NCBI GenBank assembly: GCA_903908605.1
Contig: CAIVSQ010000575.1
Span: 1-64,000 of the forward strand
Length of the DNA: 64,000 nt
Reading direction: 5' to 3'
From: an uncultured Anaerolineae bacterium
Lineage (GTDB): Bacteria; Chloroflexota; Anaerolineae; Anaerolineales; Villigracilaceae
The notes beneath the pieces are model-generated. The model was not told where the DNA came from and ran no database searches. It was given only the letters and a program-made list of their open reading frames with translations. How positions within the stretch are numbered: the first letter of the stretch is position 1; the number at the start of each line of letters is the position of its first letter. Below are positions 32,325 through 47,175 of the stretch, piece by piece. The position numbers were made by a program, and so were the translations under genes.

Positions 32325-33032
32325 ATGAATCCCTTCCTCGCCATGATTTTGACATTTGCCGCAGCAATGGGTTGGTTGCGTTTGATGGACCTATTCGCGC
32401 ACCAGGGTTGGATTGAAAGCCGGATGAGCCGAAAAATCATCCATATTGGCACCGGTCCTATCTTTGTTTTATGTTGGTTACTATTCCCCGATGTATGGTA
32501 TGCGCGTTGGCTGGCGGCACTGGTGCCCTTTGGTATCTCGGTGCAATTTGCATTGATTGGGCTTGGCATTATGAAGGACGAAGCATCGGTCAAGGCTATG
32601 TCGCGCAGCGGAGATCCCAAGGAAATCCTGCGCGGACCACTCTATTACGGGATTATGTTCGTAATACTGACGCTGGTCTTTTGGAAGGATTCGCCAGTAG
32701 GCATGACAGCCTTGATGATGCTATGCGGTGGTGATGGCGTTGCCGATGTGGTTGGTCGTCGCTTTAAATCCCCCAAGCTGTTTCATAGCCCACAGAAATC
32801 GATCGCTGGCTCCATGGGCGTTTTTGTGGGTGGCTGGGTGATGACCATGATCATTCTGATCATTTACAGTTTCATGGGGGTTTTCAGCCTGCCATTGGAT
32901 AGCTACCTTGTGCCAGTGACCTTGATTGCGTTGGTTTCAACGGTAATCGAATCACTGCCCCAGCGCGATATTGACAATGTCACCGTGACACTGGTAGCGA
33001 CGGTGATGGGTTACTTCATGTTTAAAATGTAA
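32325..33032 (+). CDS. Phytol/dolichol kinase-like (CTP-transferase family) membrane protein
   Basis: 'MSRKIIHIGTGPIFVLCW', 'CGGDGVADVVGRRF', 'PQKSIAGSMGVFVGGW'. Confidence 0.75.
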   Translation: MNPFLAMILTFAAAMGWLRLMDLFAHQGWIESRMSRKIIHIGTGPIFVLCWLLFPDVWYARWLAALVPFGISVQFALIGLGIMKDEASVKAMSRSGDPKEILRGPLYYGIMFVILTLVFWKDSPVGMTALMMLCGGDGVADVVGRRFKSPKLFHSPQKSIAGSMGVFVGGWVMTMIILIIYSFMGVFSLPLDSYLVPVTLIALVSTVIESLPQRDIDNVTVTLVATVMGYFMFKM

Positions 33033-33058
33033 ATCCGGGGTTTGTGAAAAAAATAAAG

Positions 33059-33087
33059 CGCGCGCGGCGGTCTACCTGCCGCGCGCG
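33059..33087 (-). terminator. Terminator overlapping the 3' end of the metallophosphoesterase gene
   Basis: CGCGCGCGGC/GCCGCGCGCG; stop codon in the loop; T-rich tail on the minus strand. Confidence 0.7.
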
Positions 33088-34079
33088 ATGTTTAACCAGT
33101 GAGCCTCGTTATAGGTTTGTAGTGGAACCACGCTCATATCCGCGAGGAAAAGCGCATCCATCTTGAGTGAGGTGGGGCTTACATGTACACGAATGAGGTT
33201 GTCTTGGGGGCTGTCTCCCAGCCCGGTCATGACCAGGGTCAGCGGTAACCAGGGATCGCGCTGGTAATAAGGCGAGAGGTTTCCCCATGCGCCGACATCC
33301 CCGGCGAAAATGATGACCGGTTTGTGACGAGCCGCCGGGATGAAGTAGGTTTCCATGAGTGGGTTGGCCCCGTCTTTTTTTTGACAATCCCATACATTGG
33401 GCATTGCCTGCTTGTTCTTTAGGGCTTTCATGCCGGGGTTTTGGAAAACCAGGGTTTTGTGCATAAAGACAAAAATATATCGGGTTTGGGGGTCAGAAAG
33501 AGCTTTGTCCAATTCGCTTCTCAACAGGTCGAGTTGTGGCTGATCGAGGCTGCATTCCACTCGCTCGGTGTCCAAGAAGATTAATTCGGCCGGGCCACGT
33601 TGTAAACCAAAATAAGTTTGTTTTCCAAAGTAAGATTCGTAAATTTCGCGGTGATTGGTGACATCATGGTTCCCAGGGGTGTTGTACAGTGGAAATGTCA
33701 GTTGATCGAGCAGCGAGCTGCGCAGATTGTCAAAATCGGTTTCGGTTTTACGGTAGACCACATCACCCAGCGAGACGATGAAGTCAGGCTGGGTGTTGAT
33801 GATTTCGGGAAGACGATTAAGTAGTGAAGCAGCTGGCAACCCGTCGGGGATGGAGGGGGAACCATAGATGTGACCAAGTACATAAAAATTCAGATCACCC
33901 GGTTCGCGCTCCTCCGGGGTAATGAGATTGGCCGTTTGCAGGAACAACCATTCGCGTAGACTGGAAGGCAGTCTTTCGGTAGCCCATAGCCCTGTGAAGA
34001 GCAAGGCAAGCAAGCCAAGCAAGCCAAGCAAGCCAAGCAAGCCAAGGGTGATGGTAATTGGCCCGGTTTTACGATTCAC
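33072..34079 (-). CDS. Metallophosphoesterase with N-terminal TM anchor
   Basis: 'YVLGHIYGS', 'VSLGDVVY', 'YNTPGNHDVTN', 'FVFMHKTL', 'IIFAGDVGAWG'; GTG start overlaps the VTC stop (GTGA). Confidence 0.8.
   Translation of the reverse strand: MNRKTGPITITLGLLGLLGLLGLLALLFTGLWATERLPSSLREWLFLQTANLITPEEREPGDLNFYVLGHIYGSPSIPDGLPAASLLNRLPEIINTQPDFIVSLGDVVYRKTETDFDNLRSSLLDQLTFPLYNTPGNHDVTNHREIYESYFGKQTYFGLQRGPAELIFLDTERVECSLDQPQLDLLRSELDKALSDPQTRYIFVFMHKTLVFQNPGMKALKNKQAMPNVWDCQKKDGANPLMETYFIPAARHKPVIIFAGDVGAWGNLSPYYQRDPWLPLTLVMTGLGDSPQDNLIRVHVSPTSLKMDALFLADMSVVPLQTYNEAHWLNIARGR
34008..34046. repeat. 9-bp tandem repeat (AAGCAAGCC x4 plus partial) inside the metallophosphoesterase TM-helix codons
   Basis: Four perfect consecutive copies, encoding (LLG)n in 'LGLLGLLGLLGLLALLF'. 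Confidence 0.9.
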
Positions 34080-34765
34080 ACCAGATCCTGCCAGAGATTA
34101 TCAACATACTTGGAAAAACGGTTGGCTCGGACAGGGAAATGGGAGAGCACATCGGCCAGTTCGCCAGCATACTTTACGTCACCTTTTAGCTCAACAATTA
34201 CCTGTCCATTGGGCGGGTTACAGAAGCCCAGGTTCGGGCGTGCGGCAAAGAGCTGGTTGTAGCCACGTAAGTTGGAATCGATCGTCAGCCGCACGCGACC
34301 ATTGGCGGAAACGAGATAGTCGCGTGTGTAAACGACCAGCAGGGTGGGACGTGAAACGGAAAGCAACTCCCGAATCAACCCGCTCGATGCAGCACGCATG
34401 GCATCTGAAAGGACGGCCCAGCTGTGGATTGCAAGGTCGAAGTCAGGGCTGAGTTTTTCGGTTAGCTTCCAACCGGCGCGCTCGGATTTGTTCTTGACTT
34501 CCACCTGTCCTGCATGTGCGAGTCCCAAGTTTGGTCCGTACCAGCGGTAGCGCAGTTTGCGGCGAACGGGTACACCGGCGAGATGGTCATTGAAGGTATC
34601 CAGTCCGTTGGTATCGAAGTAGATGCTGTTGACCTGGCGGGAGGGGTAAGCGGTGCGAAACCCTGCTGGATGCATGCACACCCAACTGTGGATTTCGGGC
34701 AGGAGCAGTTCGGAATACGACTGCTTTAGCTCGTAACGTGAGTCAAAAGCCTGTTCGATACTCAT
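34076..34765 (-). CDS. VTC-domain polyphosphate polymerase
   Basis: 'RYELKQSY', 'NSIYFDT', 'RRKLRYRWYG', 'EVKNKSE', 'LTIDSNLRGY', 'VIVELKGDVKYA', 'NRFSKYVDNL'. Confidence 0.9.
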   Translation of the reverse strand: MSIEQAFDSRYELKQSYSELLLPEIHSWVCMHPAGFRTAYPSRQVNSIYFDTNGLDTFNDHLAGVPVRRKLRYRWYGPNLGLAHAGQVEVKNKSERAGWKLTEKLSPDFDLAIHSWAVLSDAMRAASSGLIRELLSVSRPTLLVVYTRDYLVSANGRVRLTIDSNLRGYNQLFAARPNLGFCNPPNGQVIVELKGDVKYAGELADVLSHFPVRANRFSKYVDNLWQDLV

Positions 34766-37422
34766 CAGTTGCCGAGGATCCCTTCCGCGTAGAGTTTGTC
34801 GACATCCAAATCCTGTTCAGTCATTTTTTGCCCATTGAGTGTAATTGAGCTGCCAATTTGAGTGACGCACAGCTGCTTGGTGTCGTTGATGGTCACATTA
34901 ATAGCGGTGATGGTAGCCGGACCAAAGACAGCTTTCTTAATATAGGCGGCCAGACCTGAAAAACGTGCACTGGTGATGCTGGAATTTTTAATCTCGATAG
35001 TGGAAAGATCTTTGCTGGCGACGCCGATACCAACAACATCCATGGTGATGTTTTCGGCCAGAATATGGCTGTCTTCACCTATCGAAAGTCCTTTATCCAC
35101 GATGTTGTTGATTTGCAAACCTGAGAGGGTGGCGCTGGTGCCGCTGACATCCACGGCGTCGCCCTGGATATCGTGGAAGCTGCAATCGCGAATATCACCA
35201 TTCGAGAAATCGCTGTCAAATGCATCTGCGAAAGTGTTTTCAAATTCTGTATTGAGGAAAGTAAATTTGCCGTGGATTACGTTGATGGCATCCTCGGTTT
35301 GATTATTCCCGATAATGGCGTGATCAAGGCGGATGTCGCTGGCAAAAAAAGTGATGCCACCGGTGAGAATCCAGCCCTGGCGCTCGATGCCGTGCGTGCT
35401 ATCAACACGGGCGTATTTCCACAATGATTCACGCCCGGCGTGCAAAACGACAACCCCGCCCCAGCCCTTTTGCTCATCCTGGGCGGTTAAAAGAACAGGA
35501 TTGCTGGCGTCGCCCAGCATGTTCACTGCGCCTCGGGCCAGCAGAACTGCGCCAGGTTCAAAACGAAGCACGGTGCCTGGTGCAATTTGCAGGGTTACAC
35601 CTTCGGGAGTGATAATGTCGCCGTGAACATCCCAGACCCCTGGCGAGATGAGCATCTGGCTCGAATCGGGGGACGCTGAGATATAAGGGTGGCTCTTTAA
35701 AATTTCATCCTGGGATGGCGGAATGGGTAGCGGGCCAATCGTGATTCCCGCCGGGGTCATGACCCCATCCAGGTTGACCTTGATTTCGTTTGGTACCCCG
35801 CCAAAGCGTACGACCGCTTCGATTTTTGGCGACTTTTTAGATTGAGTCCAGGGCGTGGTGTCGTTGAGTGGAATCTCATACCAGGTAAGGTTAGGAACCT
35901 GCTCGCCGCTTTTTAACGAAGGGATTATGGCGGCTGCATCGGATGGCAGAGCTAGCGGTGCACCGTTGACCTCCAGCCGAACCACATCGATCGGCAAAAT
36001 GGATATGTTGGTTAGTTCAACCCTGAGAGCCGGTGGATTGGTATCGCCCAGGTTCAGCCCGGTAACGGTGACTGCGCCTTTAACCGGGTTGGGTGGGGAG
36101 AACCACAGGTTAAGAAAAGCCTGGCGGTCGGTAAGACGCTTCCAGTTGATATCCAACCCCTTCTGGTTGTATTCGCCTTGTAGAGCGGTAGTGAAGTCGA
36201 TCGCTTCCGGGTTGTATTTTTCTTTGAGTTGCTCAATATAACCGGGGCGGGTCATGCGGTAGAGTTCCTCAGCATAGGCGCGCTTGACATCGTCATCGTT
36301 GAAGATGCTGTTACCGGCATCGAAGATGAAATTTTTGGTTGCATCCTGCCGGCATTCATCAAATGGGATGGCGTCGTAAACCACCGGCTCCAGTCGAGAG
36401 GTAACGGGGTTGTAATAGAAACGCAAGTTGTGCCAGTTCGTGCCGTGGCAGGCGGCCCACAAGTCAGAAAGGGCGAAAAAGCGTCCCATCAGGCGCACAT
36501 CAAAGACCTGTGAGGCTGACAGGGCACCGCTTTCGTAGGCGCGCAGCAGTTCACCAGCAGTCTTCGCCTCGGCAGAGAGGGTTGAGCTGACTTCAATTTT
36601 GCCAGATTGAAAATTGCTAATGTCAGCGGTTTTTTCAGTGGTATACGTCCAACCATTACCAACGAACTTGGTGCCGTTGGCGTAAAAATAAGCCCATTTA
36701 TCCCACAAGTTTTCCTCGTCAAAACGCAGGATGACTCCCTGGCGACGACCCTGACTCTCGATTAATTCAGATGCGAAACTTTCTTCGATTCCATAAATAC
36801 CCAGCAGCTCGCCATTCAACATGACATTTACAAAGTTATAGCGGGTGGTCAGGATGTTCTCTTCCATCAAGTTTTGATGGAAGGCCCATTCGTAAAGGAA
36901 GTTGCGGGTTTCGGGGGTTTGGATGGAGAACTGGCGGAAACCCATAATTTGTGCGCCGTTCTTTAACTGAATGCGAAAGGACCATTTTTTCCCTTGCAAG
37001 TGGTCGGTCCAATCGCCTTTCAGGCGCATTTGTACATCCATTTTGGGACCATTGTTAAGCGTAATCGTGGCGGGCACTAAGTCTTCGTCAGTGGTTTGCA
37101 GGATACCTACCTGCAGGGCCTCGTCACGCTTTTCGAGCATCTTGCGATAATATTTGAACTTGAGGTCAATTGCGAGGGTTTTGAGACCGTTATCCTGGTA
37201 AAGGCGGACCTCGTCACTGGTGTTTTTTTGGACAGTCGCCACTGCGGACTGCACCTGGGTACGGGCCTGGCTGAGCAGCCCGGTTCGATCGAGCAGGATG
37301 CCGGCTCCGAAAGCAAAAATGAATAACAAAGCCAAAACCACTCCAACCATGATGCGCCGGGTGGGTGTACCGTTGACCGGCTTGGTGTTTGTGCCAGTCT
37401 CTTCAGGTTGGCGTAACTTCAT
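34765..37422 (-). CDS. CotH kinase-family protein fused to a C-terminal parallel beta-helix
   Basis: CotH motifs 'VQMRLKGDWTDHLQGKKWSFRIQL', 'FVNVMLNGELLGIYGIEESF', 'GTNWHNLRFYYNPVTSRLEPVVYDAIPFDE'; C-terminal right-handed beta-helix-like repeats; N-terminal TM. Confidence 0.85.
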   Translation of the reverse strand: MKLRQPEETGTNTKPVNGTPTRRIMVGVVLALLFIFAFGAGILLDRTGLLSQARTQVQSAVATVQKNTSDEVRLYQDNGLKTLAIDLKFKYYRKMLEKRDEALQVGILQTTDEDLVPATITLNNGPKMDVQMRLKGDWTDHLQGKKWSFRIQLKNGAQIMGFRQFSIQTPETRNFLYEWAFHQNLMEENILTTRYNFVNVMLNGELLGIYGIEESFASELIESQGRRQGVILRFDEENLWDKWAYFYANGTKFVGNGWTYTTEKTADISNFQSGKIEVSSTLSAEAKTAGELLRAYESGALSASQVFDVRLMGRFFALSDLWAACHGTNWHNLRFYYNPVTSRLEPVVYDAIPFDECRQDATKNFIFDAGNSIFNDDDVKRAYAEELYRMTRPGYIEQLKEKYNPEAIDFTTALQGEYNQKGLDINWKRLTDRQAFLNLWFSPPNPVKGAVTVTGLNLGDTNPPALRVELTNISILPIDVVRLEVNGAPLALPSDAAAIIPSLKSGEQVPNLTWYEIPLNDTTPWTQSKKSPKIEAVVRFGGVPNEIKVNLDGVMTPAGITIGPLPIPPSQDEILKSHPYISASPDSSQMLISPGVWDVHGDIITPEGVTLQIAPGTVLRFEPGAVLLARGAVNMLGDASNPVLLTAQDEQKGWGGVVVLHAGRESLWKYARVDSTHGIERQGWILTGGITFFASDIRLDHAIIGNNQTEDAINVIHGKFTFLNTEFENTFADAFDSDFSNGDIRDCSFHDIQGDAVDVSGTSATLSGLQINNIVDKGLSIGEDSHILAENITMDVVGIGVASKDLSTIEIKNSSITSARFSGLAAYIKKAVFGPATITAINVTINDTKQLCVTQIGSSITLNGQKMTEQDLDVDKLYAEGILGN

Positions 37423-37427
37423 TTATT

Positions 37428-38099
37428 TCATCCTCCAAGCAGGTTGCTCTGCTCTACAACGCTGATGCTGCTGCCAGGATAGGCTTTGCGCAGGGTATCC
37501 ATCATCGAAATGATGTCATCTGAGTTGGTGATGTTTACGTAATAAGTGAGCTGGAGCAGATCGCCGGAGTGGTCGAGGCGGCGAAAATCAAGGGTTTTGA
37601 ATTGTTTGAGCAGGGCTGCGTTGATGTCGGCGAAAAGGTGATCCCCTTCTTGGGCGGCGGGCACCTGGATATTGAGGTAGAGATTGTGCAAGGCTTTACG
37701 ACGATTGAAGAGTAGTGCGCGCGCTAAAAGGAAAATCATAATGACGGCCACTGCCACCAGGGTTGGAATGCGTTGGTCGGCACCAAAACCCAGACCAACA
37801 GCGATGGCCAGGAACAGGAAGATGAGTTCCTCTGGGTCTTTGATGGCTGTGCGGAAGCGCACGATCGAAAGAGCACCTACCAGGCCAAGGGAAAGTGCGA
37901 GTGAAGATTTGACGACTGAGATGACCAGCAGGGTAATAAGGGATAGCAACGGCAGGATCGCAGCAAAATGCAGGCGATTGGAGAGAGAGTTGCCAAATTT
38001 CACGTAATACAGGGCAACAATGATGGAAACCCCCGTTCCAAGGGCAAGATTAAGCAGGAGAATAGGTAGTGAAAGCGGGGTAATTTGGGAGATATCCAT
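37428..38099 (-). CDS. DUF4956 family membrane protein
   Basis: 'LALSLGLVGALSIVRFRTAIKDPEELIFLFLAIAVGLGFGA'; start 38099 behind AAAGGA. Confidence 0.85.
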   Translation of the reverse strand: MDISQITPLSLPILLLNLALGTGVSIIVALYYVKFGNSLSNRLHFAAILPLLSLITLLVISVVKSSLALSLGLVGALSIVRFRTAIKDPEELIFLFLAIAVGLGFGADQRIPTLVAVAVIMIFLLARALLFNRRKALHNLYLNIQVPAAQEGDHLFADINAALLKQFKTLDFRRLDHSGDLLQLTYYVNITNSDDIISMMDTLRKAYPGSSISVVEQSNLLGG

Positions 38100-38205: not shown

Positions 38206-38252
38206 AGCCCGGGAAATTTATGTCTGAAGAATTACGATAAATTTCCCGGGCT
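38206..38252. repeat. 15-bp perfect inverted repeat between the PIG-L and DUF4956 genes
   Basis: AGCCCGGGAAATTTA-N17-TAAATTTCCCGGGCT; no adjacent T-run on either strand. Confidence 0.8.
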
Positions 38253-43134: not shown

Positions 43135-46100
43135 TTATTTTTTCTTGTGTCTTTTGCGACCGGCCCTGGCAGCCGCGGAGTTATCCTCTGCATCGTCGGA
43201 GGGTACGGCCATGGGGATCTCCATGGCGGATTCGGCAGAGTCATTTTCAACCGCAACAACACGCGGAAGATAGCGGAACACCCGATCGATGACGCCCGAG
43301 CGAACTTCGCCGAGGAGAGTTTGGAACATGTCTGAGGCTTTGGTCTTATATTGTACCAGCGGGTCGCGTTGCCCGTAAGCCTCCAGCCCAATGGAAACGC
43401 GCAACGCCTCCACGCGGGTGAGGTAATCGACCCACAGCTCGGTGATGACTCCCAGCAGCACATTGCGCTGAATTTCGGCTGTGCGACGTTGCCCAACTGT
43501 AGCCATAAATTGGGATCGTTGTTCCGCATTCAATCCGGCGAGGGCAGTTCCTGTGGGAATGTGGCTGGCTGCGTAGATATCATCCAACGTTTCTGGCTGC
43601 GGGTTGTTCTGGATCATCTGGGCGTAATCAGCCTGACCCCAGCCTGTGAGCAGTTTGCTGGTGGCTTTTTCCAGGTGGTCAAGAACGTCTGCCTGCACAT
43701 CTTCGGGTTTGCGCCCGACGATCAATAGGGCGGCCAGGTAGACATAATTGAAGCGCTGGAATTCCTGGGTGACCTGTTTGTGAGTCTTGGTGTTGAAAAC
43801 GGTCCGGCGGCCTCGTGAGAGGGACATGAGCAGGCCGGCGAGGTCCGAGTCGTCCATTTCAGTGACGTTCAAGCGGCCTAGCATGAATTCCAACTCGCGC
43901 ATGGTTTGACTGTTTGGACCAGTGAGTTTTTCGCGGCGAGTGACCAGCATCTTGTGGGAAGCTTCCATCAGGCTGGCAGCCGCAGCATCCCAGTCCAGGC
44001 GAGCCAGCTCATCTGCTTTGACGGGGATCTGTTCGTTCAGACGGTATTCAAGGCTGGCGAGCAGGCGCGAAATGGCCAGGTTGGAGAGCGCAACATCAAT
44101 CTGTTCTTTGACTGGTTCTTCAAGTGCATCGGGACGGGTGGTGAGCTGTTTGAGCTGGTCATTATTCAGGCGGATATCGAGGTGCATCAGGCTTTTTAGT
44201 TCCTCAAGCACTTCGGTGGCGCGTCTGCTGGCAGTTTCTTCGTTGTCTTTGAGCGCTTCCAGAAAGGTATCCAGGGTATCGAAACGCTCCTGCAACTGGG
44301 TTTCAAGCGATGTGGCTGTGCTGGCGACGGCGGTCTCGATGGCGCGCAGAATGTGCTGTTCTTCGGTTTCCACCGCGCGGCGGATCACATCCATGAGAAT
44401 ATCCGCGGGCTGACCGTTGGCATTTGTCAGGTCGTCCAGCAGCAATCGGAATGTGAAGGAAGGAAAGAATTTGTTGTCGGCGTAGACGAAGGGCGGTTGA
44501 ATTTGTTCCAACCAGGCCAGCAGTTTCCACGGGCCTTCAGGGTCTTTCATGGCAGGGGGTACGCGGGCGACAATCTCATCGGCGAGCAGGGCGGCAATGT
44601 CTTCCGTCAGATCATGCTTGGTCATGGCGCGATCGCGCTGGGAGTAGATGGTGCTGCGCTGTTTGTTGAGCACATCATCGTATTCGAGCAAGTGTTTACG
44701 TACGTCGAAGTTGGAACCTTCCACGCGGTGCTGCGACTGTTCGATCAACCCGGTGACCAGTTTGTTTTCGAGTGGGAAGTCATCATCCAGGCGGAAACGC
44801 TGCATGATGTTATCAACCTGTTCGCCGCCAAACATGCGCATCAGGTCATCTTGCAGGGAAAGATAAAAGCGAGAGGAGCCGGGGTCGCCCTGGCGGGCGG
44901 CGCGTCCACGCAACTGGTTGTCAATGCGGCGGGCTTCATGTCGTTCGGAGCCAATCACGTGCAGACCACCCAGGTGGCGGACGGTTTCCATATCTTCGAA
45001 ATATTTAAGAAAATAGTGAATTTCCGATTCGTAAATACCGAACTCGGAGGCGTTCATTTTTAGAATAGCCTGGCGCTGTTCCTCCAGGCGCATGTTGTAG
45101 GGGTCAAACCCGGCACGTTTGAGCACGCGGCTGACGATGGCGATGATTTCATCGGCCAGTTCGCCGCCCAGCTTGATATCGACACCACGGCCGGCCATAT
45201 TGGTGGCGATGGTCACCGCGCCATGCGAACCGGCGGCGGCGATGATCTGGCTTTCCTCAGTATGCTTGCGCGCGTTTAAAACCTGGTGGGGAACACCACC
45301 CTGGATGATGGATTTGAGCGAGTCGATGTATTGTGGTTCCAGCCGTAGAATGGTGATGAGCCGGGTGAGGTTGGCTGCGTCTTCGGGGTTGATGGAAATG
45401 TTTAGCGGTTTGGCAAAACTGCGCAGCAGGTTTGGTTCAAGCTGGTCAAGAGGTTTGTAAAGCGGCTCTAATTCATTAAAGAGGCGGCCATCCTCCTCTT
45501 TGCCAGATTGTTCAAACCAGGTATGCCGGAGCATTTGCACTTGCAGCAGGCGCCGGATGGGCTCGGCCTTGAGCCGTGAGGATATTCGCTCAGAAGATTC
45601 CACTGAGGTGGTGCCGACCAGGATTGGACGACCAAGGACGTGGTCACGCACGATTTCCATGGCGATTGCACGCAGCTTGGCTTCGACAGTGCGGTAGACC
45701 ATATCGGGATAGTCCGAACGGCGCCAAAAGACGGGCGCTTTTTCTGCATCGCCGCGGCTTGCAAAGTAGGCGATTTCGTAACCATCCTTGTCTTTGGTCT
45801 TGATTTCGATCAGTGGTGAGGTACCCTGGGTTGCGTTGTATTCAAGGTTGGTGGGGATGGGTAACACATCTAGCTTGTATATCTTGTGGAATTCTTCGGC
45901 TTCGGTCAGCGCGGTACCGGTCATGCCGGCTAACTTCTGATACATGCGGAAGTAGTTTTGCAGGGTGATGGTGGCGTAGGTGACGTTTTCTGGCTCGACC
46001 TTGACGCCTTCCTTTGCTTCCACGGCTTGGTGAAGCCCATCACTCCAGCGACGCCCGGCCATCAGACGCCCGGTAAATTCATCCACAATGACGACCTTGC

Positions 46101-47175
46101 CACCCTGGACGAGGTATTCTTTGTTACGTTTGTAAAGAAATTGGGCGCGCAGGGCTTGTTCGAGATGACCGAGCAGGCGAGCTTGCTCAGGAGTGACATC
46201 CTCTGGCCGTTCCGGGTCGCGCAGGGGCTGACCGAGCAGTTGCTCGACGTGCACCGTGCCCATTTCGGTCATGGAGATGTTTCGATCCTTCTCGTTGATT
46301 TCGTAATCTTCCGGCACCAGTTGTTTAACGAGCTGGGCCATCTGGCCGTAGTATTCCAGGTCTCCGGCGGCGGGGCCAGAGATGATTAACGGGGTACGGG
46401 CTTCATCAATCAGCACGTTGTCGACTTCATCGACGATGGCGAAATAATGCCCGCGCTGAACTTTCTCGGCTGGGGTATACACCATGTTATCGCGTAGGTA
46501 ATCGAAACCGAATTCGGAATTGGTGCCATAGGTGATATCTGCATCGTAGGCCAGCCGACGATCCACCAGTCGCAGGCGGTGCTTGTCTTCTTGGGGAGAT
46601 TCGCGATCTGGGTCGTAAAGGAAGGCTTTTTTGCCATTCTCTGTGGAGTTAGCAGATTGAAGGATGCCGACTGAAAGCCCAAGTGCTTGGTAAATTGGTC
46701 CCATCCAGCGTGCGTCACGTCGGGCGAGATAGTCGTTGACAGTGATCAGGTGTACCCCACGCCCGGTGATGGCGTTAAGGTACATTGGCAGGGTGGCAAC
46801 CAGGGTTTTTCCTTCCCCTGTGCGCATTTCGGATATCTTCCGATTGTGCAATGCTGCGCCACCAATCAGCTGTACGTCATAATGCCGTAATCCAAGGGTG
46901 CGTTTGGATGCTTCGCGTACTGCGGCAAACGCTTCGGGGAGGATTTCGTCCAGAAAAGCCTGTTCAGCTGCCTGGCGTACTTCGCCTTCAGGCAGCTCTT
47001 TTAGCCGATCGGCCAGCTGGCCGCGGAAGAAGACGGTTTTTTCTCGCAGGTCCTCATCGCTCAGCTTTTCATATTGGGACTCGAAATCGTTGACCGGTAA
47101 AATTTTCTCGGTCAGACGTTCAACTTCACGTTTATTGGGGTTACCCCCGACAAGACTTAGGAATTTTTGAAACAT
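43135..47175 (-). CDS. secA: Preprotein translocase subunit SecA (enlarged, 1346 aa)
   Basis: '[22 protein letters not shown]', '[20 protein letters not shown]', '[14 protein letters not shown]', '[25 protein letters not shown]'. Confidence 0.96.
   Translation of the reverse strand: [1346 protein letters not shown]

Follow-up and report, generated by a model that had tools for sequence, protein, structure and literature searches.

What brings a polyphosphate polymerase of the yeast VTC type into one operon with a membrane protein, an exported kinase-fold protein and a phosphoesterase-like protein, and do these genes belong together at all? The question is raised by four genes in the 64,000-nt stretch of an Anaerolineae contig analysed here (the window). 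They are packed end to end on the minus strand, as a preliminary description of this DNA had stated, and its coordinates, a 5-nt gap between DUF4956 and CotH, and overlaps of 1 nt between CotH and VTC (TGATG) and 4 nt between VTC and the metallophosphoesterase-like (MPE) gene (GTGA) are exact; the GGAGG that it assigned to CotH indeed lies within the DUF4956 3' end. From upstream to downstream, the features are:

38206-38252: long inverted repeat in the intergenic region that separates DUF4956 from the PIG-L gene upstream (fold -27.2 kcal/mol, z -6.1)
37428-38099, minus strand: DUF4956 gene (ATG start; Pfam DUF4956, 58.8 bits)
34765-37422, minus strand: CotH-fold/beta-helix fusion gene (885 aa; Pfam CotH and Beta_helix)
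36445-36447, minus strand: codon of His326, at the site of the CotH catalytic Asp228 (hhalign and B. cereus CotH alignment)
36373-36375, minus strand: codon of Asp350, the kept equivalent of CotH Asp251 (alignments)
34837-35685, minus strand: beta-helix domain, residues 580-862, AlgG-type fold (model, Foldseek, homologue alignment)
34076-34765, minus strand: VTC gene (229 aa; Pfam VTC, 79.7 bits)
33072-34079, minus strand: MPE gene (GTG start; Pfam Metallophos, 31.9 bits)
33050-33087, minus strand: terminator-like GC hairpin with U-run at the operon 3' end (fold -24.4 kcal/mol, z -3.3)

The GC-rich hairpin and its U-run overlie the MPE stop codon, and a promoter scan returned sites no commoner than in shuffled sequence. 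VTC, CotH and DUF4956 are each single-copy in the genome. No polysaccharide synthase gene lies within the operon, and the cassette is flanked by ordinary genes (PIG-L, AzlCD, SecA and others). The upstream PIG-L gene and a plus-strand gene at 32325 were considered as cassette members and rejected, since neither adjoins the cassette in relatives. A foreign or contaminant origin was also rejected: in the cassette tree the window falls among Anaerolineae, with full support, and the GC content of the flanks matches. The SecA open frame (43135-47175) is unusually long, at 1346 aa, with SecA domains extending to about residue 950.

The gene grouping is more than chance, because families that are rare in 221 Chloroflexota genomes (VTC in 20, DUF4956 in 18, CotH in 11) sit together there. 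By listed coordinates, 17 of 19 DUF4956 loci adjoin VTC and 10 of 14 CotH loci lie beside a VTC/DUF4956 pair; of 14 control genomes, the three with a VTC match were also the three with a DUF4956 match. Within the window's own family the CotH/beta-helix protein occurs in 6 of 120 genomes, and the order DUF4956-CotH-VTC-MPE is kept in four relatives, a fifth locus being broken off at a contig end. One relative (L087) has an additional CotH copy. A GTDB-based genome collection was scanned with a DUF4956 alignment and the best 80 loci were kept. VTC was present in 62 of these 80 and a contiguous DUF4956/CotH-beta-helix/VTC trio in 39, frequencies that are not unbiased, as the loci were chosen by similarity to the window DUF4956. 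The trio spans about 12 phyla by record titles (Chloroflexota, Pseudomonadota including SAR11, Bacteroidota, Planctomycetota, Nitrospinota, Calditrichota, Omnitrophota, Acidobacteriota, Margulisbacteria and others), with median gaps of 9 nt between DUF4956 and CotH and -6 nt between CotH and VTC. When neighbours in the best 80 loci were clustered, VTC (57 loci), window-type CotH (56) and MPE-like proteins (23) were the commonest recurrent partners of DUF4956, the next cluster being GT2 (10). VTC and DUF4956 form the constant pair across loci and MPE is absent from most cassettes; the window order including MPE recurs exactly in two Planctomycetota, and other cassettes place MPE differently. 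The cassette tree mostly tracks phyla, with the window among Anaerolineae. The three families had been called frequent neighbours and a neighbourhood survey had been proposed; the order found conserved in the family and the trio contiguous in 39 of the best 80 loci bear this out across a wider range than was then known.

Several loci depart from the common arrangement. At L056, L062, L066, L072 and L073, CotH is missing beside VTC/DUF4956 and a Cthe_2159-type carbohydrate-binding protein (Pfam-checked in L066, assigned by clustering in the other four) is found instead. The window beta-helix had no homology to Cthe_2159 profiles, and such proteins are therefore substitutes at most. Canonical CotH with its Asp present accompanies VTC/DUF4956 in other Chloroflexota, indicating that the pair functions with either of two types of CotH. 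A larger array in Bacteroidota L110, L141 and L143 runs DUF4956, VTC, canonical CotH and an O-antigen-ligase-like gene, then CotH/beta-helix and MPE. An inorganic pyrophosphatase gene lies directly beside the cassette in two Bacteroidota (L142:9232-9837, L146:5040-5645), and the pyrophosphatase cluster covers 6 loci at varying distances. One Kordiimonadaceae contig (L148) has two opposite-strand cassettes plus an additional CotH/VTC pair. In the SAR11 (Pelagibacteraceae) records L153, L162, L164, L165 and L168, all with very small genomes, either the cassette or its DUF4956 gene is present. Dokdonia pacifica (L161), a cultured non-pathogen, also has the cassette. Several relatives have GT2, O-antigen ligase, sugar epimerase and MBOAT genes in their vicinity.

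Is the VTC protein a polymerase? Its Pfam score stands against a cut-off of 23, and its profile matches Vtc4 structures (E 8e-18). It lacks an SPX domain, as previously described, and a TM segment, which was found in 0 of 89 relatives. None of the ten Vtc4-type tunnel residues examined (K14, R72, R74, K91, K100, R148, R159, E192, K194 and K219) is missing, and each is 89-100% conserved across 89 proteins. The C-terminal motifs of Vtc4, E-x-K and S-K, are found too, in agreement with the earlier view that the active-site-like motifs are intact. The catalytic role of R264, R266 and E426 in yeast VTC is taken from PMC9911596. The tunnel-enzyme superfamily is described as functionally diverse (PMC4641920), and no assay of a bacterial VTC was found in the literature searched, so that another tunnel-enzyme activity, or a polyphosphate or nucleotide sensor, could be envisaged; we hold this to be very unlikely, as none of the Vtc4-type residues has been lost, in the C-terminal motifs or elsewhere. 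PPK1 was found in the window's genome and in three cassette-bearing relatives, and hence bulk polyphosphate does not need VTC, which probably serves a local purpose. The two PPK1 matches of the window's genome (G000:C333, G000:C402) may partly reflect its 6% contamination. Elsewhere, a VTC domain lies within a 735-aa open frame (L070:8015-10222).

The proposal that DUF4956 is the membrane component is supported by its AlphaFold model (pLDDT 87.8), which has five membrane-region helices and a cytosolic ferredoxin/ACT-like domain. R81, R83, K87 and E90 of the RFRTxIKxPEE motif are invariant in the alignment, and by positive-inside reasoning the basic residues of RFRTxIK would lie on the cytosolic side. 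Foldseek gave weak matches (E near 0.009) to the ACT-like domain, including that of MgtC. Profile comparison with MgtC (hhalign) gave a probability of 79% and E 1.6e-5. With the columns reversed E was 0.16, and other membrane proteins reached 0.25 at best; reversed alignments served as the control because rotated ones retained the local match and were useless. With this weak profile support, the architecture appears MgtC-like, and an MgtC TM domain plus ACT domain had already been noted in the S. intermedius DUF4956 protein (PMC12345266). No sequence or fold link between DUF4956 and Vtc1 was detected.

The MgtC-like architecture and profile match would suit regulation rather than export: VTC and DUF4956 would form a cytosolic ATP/phosphate-state switch tuning an envelope-polymer machine, with polyphosphate a local signal confined to the cytosolic side and the CotH/beta-helix protein acting outside on the polymer. 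In S. intermedius, where the accessory genes are SIR_1591-1594, loss of DUF4956 raised and loss of CotH lowered the amount of Pel, and aggregation was lower in both (PMC12345266); these opposite Pel effects, and the two-component regulators that adjoin VTC/DUF4956 in several Chloroflexota, also favour such a switch. However, the profile support for MgtC is modest, and regulation does not by itself explain a tight operon with two exported proteins. We regard this reading as rather unlikely, though worth keeping in view.

We then asked what the exported proteins can do. The fusion protein consists of a TM helix (residues 20-46), a CotH-like domain (82-440), a linker and the beta-helix, and its AlphaFold model has a pLDDT of 88.1. 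The Pfam matches are CotH, at 27.1 bits just above the cut-off of 23.8, and Beta_helix at 26.5 bits. PDB sequence searches gave no real match, but the fold search did, aligning the protein with B. cereus CotH (5jda; E 1e-11, TM-score 0.64 by target) and its C-terminal domain with AlgG-type beta-helices. An N-terminal hydrophobic segment is found in 62 of 70 CotH/beta-helix proteins. The N-terminal TM and right-handed beta-helix predicted from the letters alone are thus supported by AlphaFold and Foldseek; the accompanying claim that the CotH motifs are intact fails. In the profile alignment to canonical CotH (hhalign probability 99.4%), His326 falls on the catalytic Asp, and the B. cereus CotH alignment fixes the register, its two Asp being 23 residues apart like D228/D251. 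Of 49 homologues, 44 have His at the Asp228 site and none has Asp; at the Asp350 site 42 have Asp and 6 have Glu.

The MPE protein is altered as well. Motifs II (GD), III (GNHD) and IV (H) are kept, whereas motif I is LGHIYG (not D-x-H) and motif V is GDVG (not G-H-x-H). In the cassette-linked MPE clade these motifs read xGHxYG and GDxG, with an unrelated protein (L096) as the sole exception, and the motif-I Asp and both motif-V His are gone throughout. An N-terminal hydrophobic segment of TM, Sec or lipoprotein type is present in 19 of 23 proteins. A 9-nt repeat (GGCTTGCTT; window 34005-34046) encodes the Leu/Gly-rich TM helix of the window MPE protein; it is in frame, and a change in copy number would affect only the length of this helix.

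The preliminary description had pictured a writer and an eraser, CotH phosphorylating surface proteins and the phosphoesterase removing the phosphate. The CotH fold, with R133, K135, E213/E214, Asn332 and Asp350 mostly kept in the 49 homologues, and MPE motifs II-IV would fit this. However, D228Q and D251A were each inactive in B. subtilis CotH (PMC7821199), and the catalytic column lacks Asp in all 49; metal ligands of MPE motifs I and V are lost clade-wide, leaving the eraser role unsupported, and most cassettes have no MPE. With Asp228 replaced and motifs I and V lost, a simple kinase/eraser pair is highly doubtful. These degenerate sites would fit a system in which the beta-helix does the work, either modifying a glycan enzymatically or serving as an adhesin, while the CotH and MPE domains are non-catalytic scaffolds. 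Across the 49 homologues the beta-helix, besides its AlgG-type fold, has a near-invariant Asp/Asn/Lys/Ser ladder of 22-residue period and more near-invariant columns than any other part of the protein. Against this, the constant link to an intact VTC is left unexplained, and the residues that CotH has kept point to continued ligand binding. The DPHD-type catalytic His of AlgG is also not obvious in the window protein. A cassette centred on the beta-helix in this way is in our judgement improbable.

From topology predictions and models, the layout is a cytosolic VTC, a membrane DUF4956 and an exported CotH/beta-helix protein, joined in a minority of the loci by an MPE-like protein that is exported too. 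The reading we favour, tentatively and at somewhat less than even chances, is that polyphosphate synthesis is coupled to the membrane and serves a glycan-associated CotH/beta-helix protein that is exported. VTC would convert ATP to polyphosphate at the inner membrane face, docked on DUF4956, which would take the role of the yeast VTC membrane subunits and receive or pass on the chain. Outside, the CotH/beta-helix protein (and the MPE-like protein) would hold a surface glycan and use, bind or be regulated by the phosphate delivered there, tuning how much of an extracellular polymer there is or how strongly it coheres. The VTC residue conservation, the constant VTC/DUF4956 pair, the consistent TM layout and the presence of PPK1 count for this model, as do the resemblance of the beta-helix to alginate epimerases and the glycan genes near several relatives. 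Basic TM residues of yeast VTC couple synthesis to translocation (PMC9911596), and DUF4956 and CotH deletions in S. intermedius alter Pel amount and aggregation (PMC12345266), which further favour it. Against it stand the S. intermedius polymerase-gene deletion, for which no aggregation or Pel change was reported (PMC12345266), the lack of a Vtc1 link for DUF4956 and of a polysaccharide synthase in the operon, and the MgtC-likeness, which suits regulation as well as transport. In a more specific and decidedly unlikely version, exported polyphosphate rather than ATP would fuel extracytoplasmic phosphate transfer: VTC would make the chain, DUF4956 would pass it across the membrane, and His-CotH, perhaps via phospho-His, would modify the glycan held by the beta-helix.

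How does the cassette compare with known systems? The DUF4956/polyphosphate-polymerase/CotH trio is already known as a Pel-operon accessory: CotH, polyphosphate polymerase, DUF4956 and DUF4832 are accessory genes beside Gram-positive pel (PMC7112168). The only experimental work that we found on the gene set treats it as such, no DUF4956/polymerase/CotH synteny having been found outside Pel (PMC12345266). As in the Gram-positive accessory set, a single operon of the window encodes DUF4956, a VTC-type polymerase and a CotH-family protein that is exported. Unlike Gram-positive Pel operons, it lies in a genome without the PelF marker; its CotH is fused to a beta-helix rather than to FN3 and has the catalytic Asp replaced by His, and MPE stands where the Pel set has a DUF4832 glycoside hydrolase. 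PF11997, which we take to be the PelF marker, was found in none of the 47 cassette genomes tested (sets of 10 and 37, several genomes incomplete), and the cassette is thus not in general a Pel accessory. In the present data the gene set stands on its own across roughly a dozen phyla, with SAR11 single-cell genomes and cultured marine flavobacteria among its carriers.

In C. perfringens, NELoc-2 is a cluster of VTC, 'tubulin/FtsZ', CotH and GT2 genes (PMC2879425). VTC and CotH share a locus as in the window, and the membrane 'tubulin' neighbours (222-226 aa) are probably DUF4956; unlike the window, NELoc-2 includes a chitin-synthase-like GT2, and MPE is not described there. AlgG-type alginate epimerases share the right-handed beta-helix fold at ~10% identity, the DPHD-motif His not being evident in the window. 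MgtC, a separate Pfam family with weak profile similarity, resembles DUF4956 in its TM bundle with a GxxGAxxIxR-like motif and its ACT-like C-domain. The Bacillus CotH spore-coat kinase (5jda) is alike in fold and profile, with the Asn and second Asp kept, whereas the window protein has His for the catalytic Asp, a C-terminal beta-helix and a membrane anchor. In the yeast VTC complex (Vtc1/Vtc3/Vtc4) the Vtc4 TTM domain is homologous, with conserved tunnel residues, whereas the window polymerase has neither SPX nor TM and is partnered in the membrane by DUF4956 in place of a Vtc1-type protein. If VTC and DUF4956 are a bacterial counterpart of this complex, bacteria that already have PPK1 would possess a dedicated membrane-coupled polyphosphate route, suggesting how an exported kinase-fold protein could work without ATP outside the cell.
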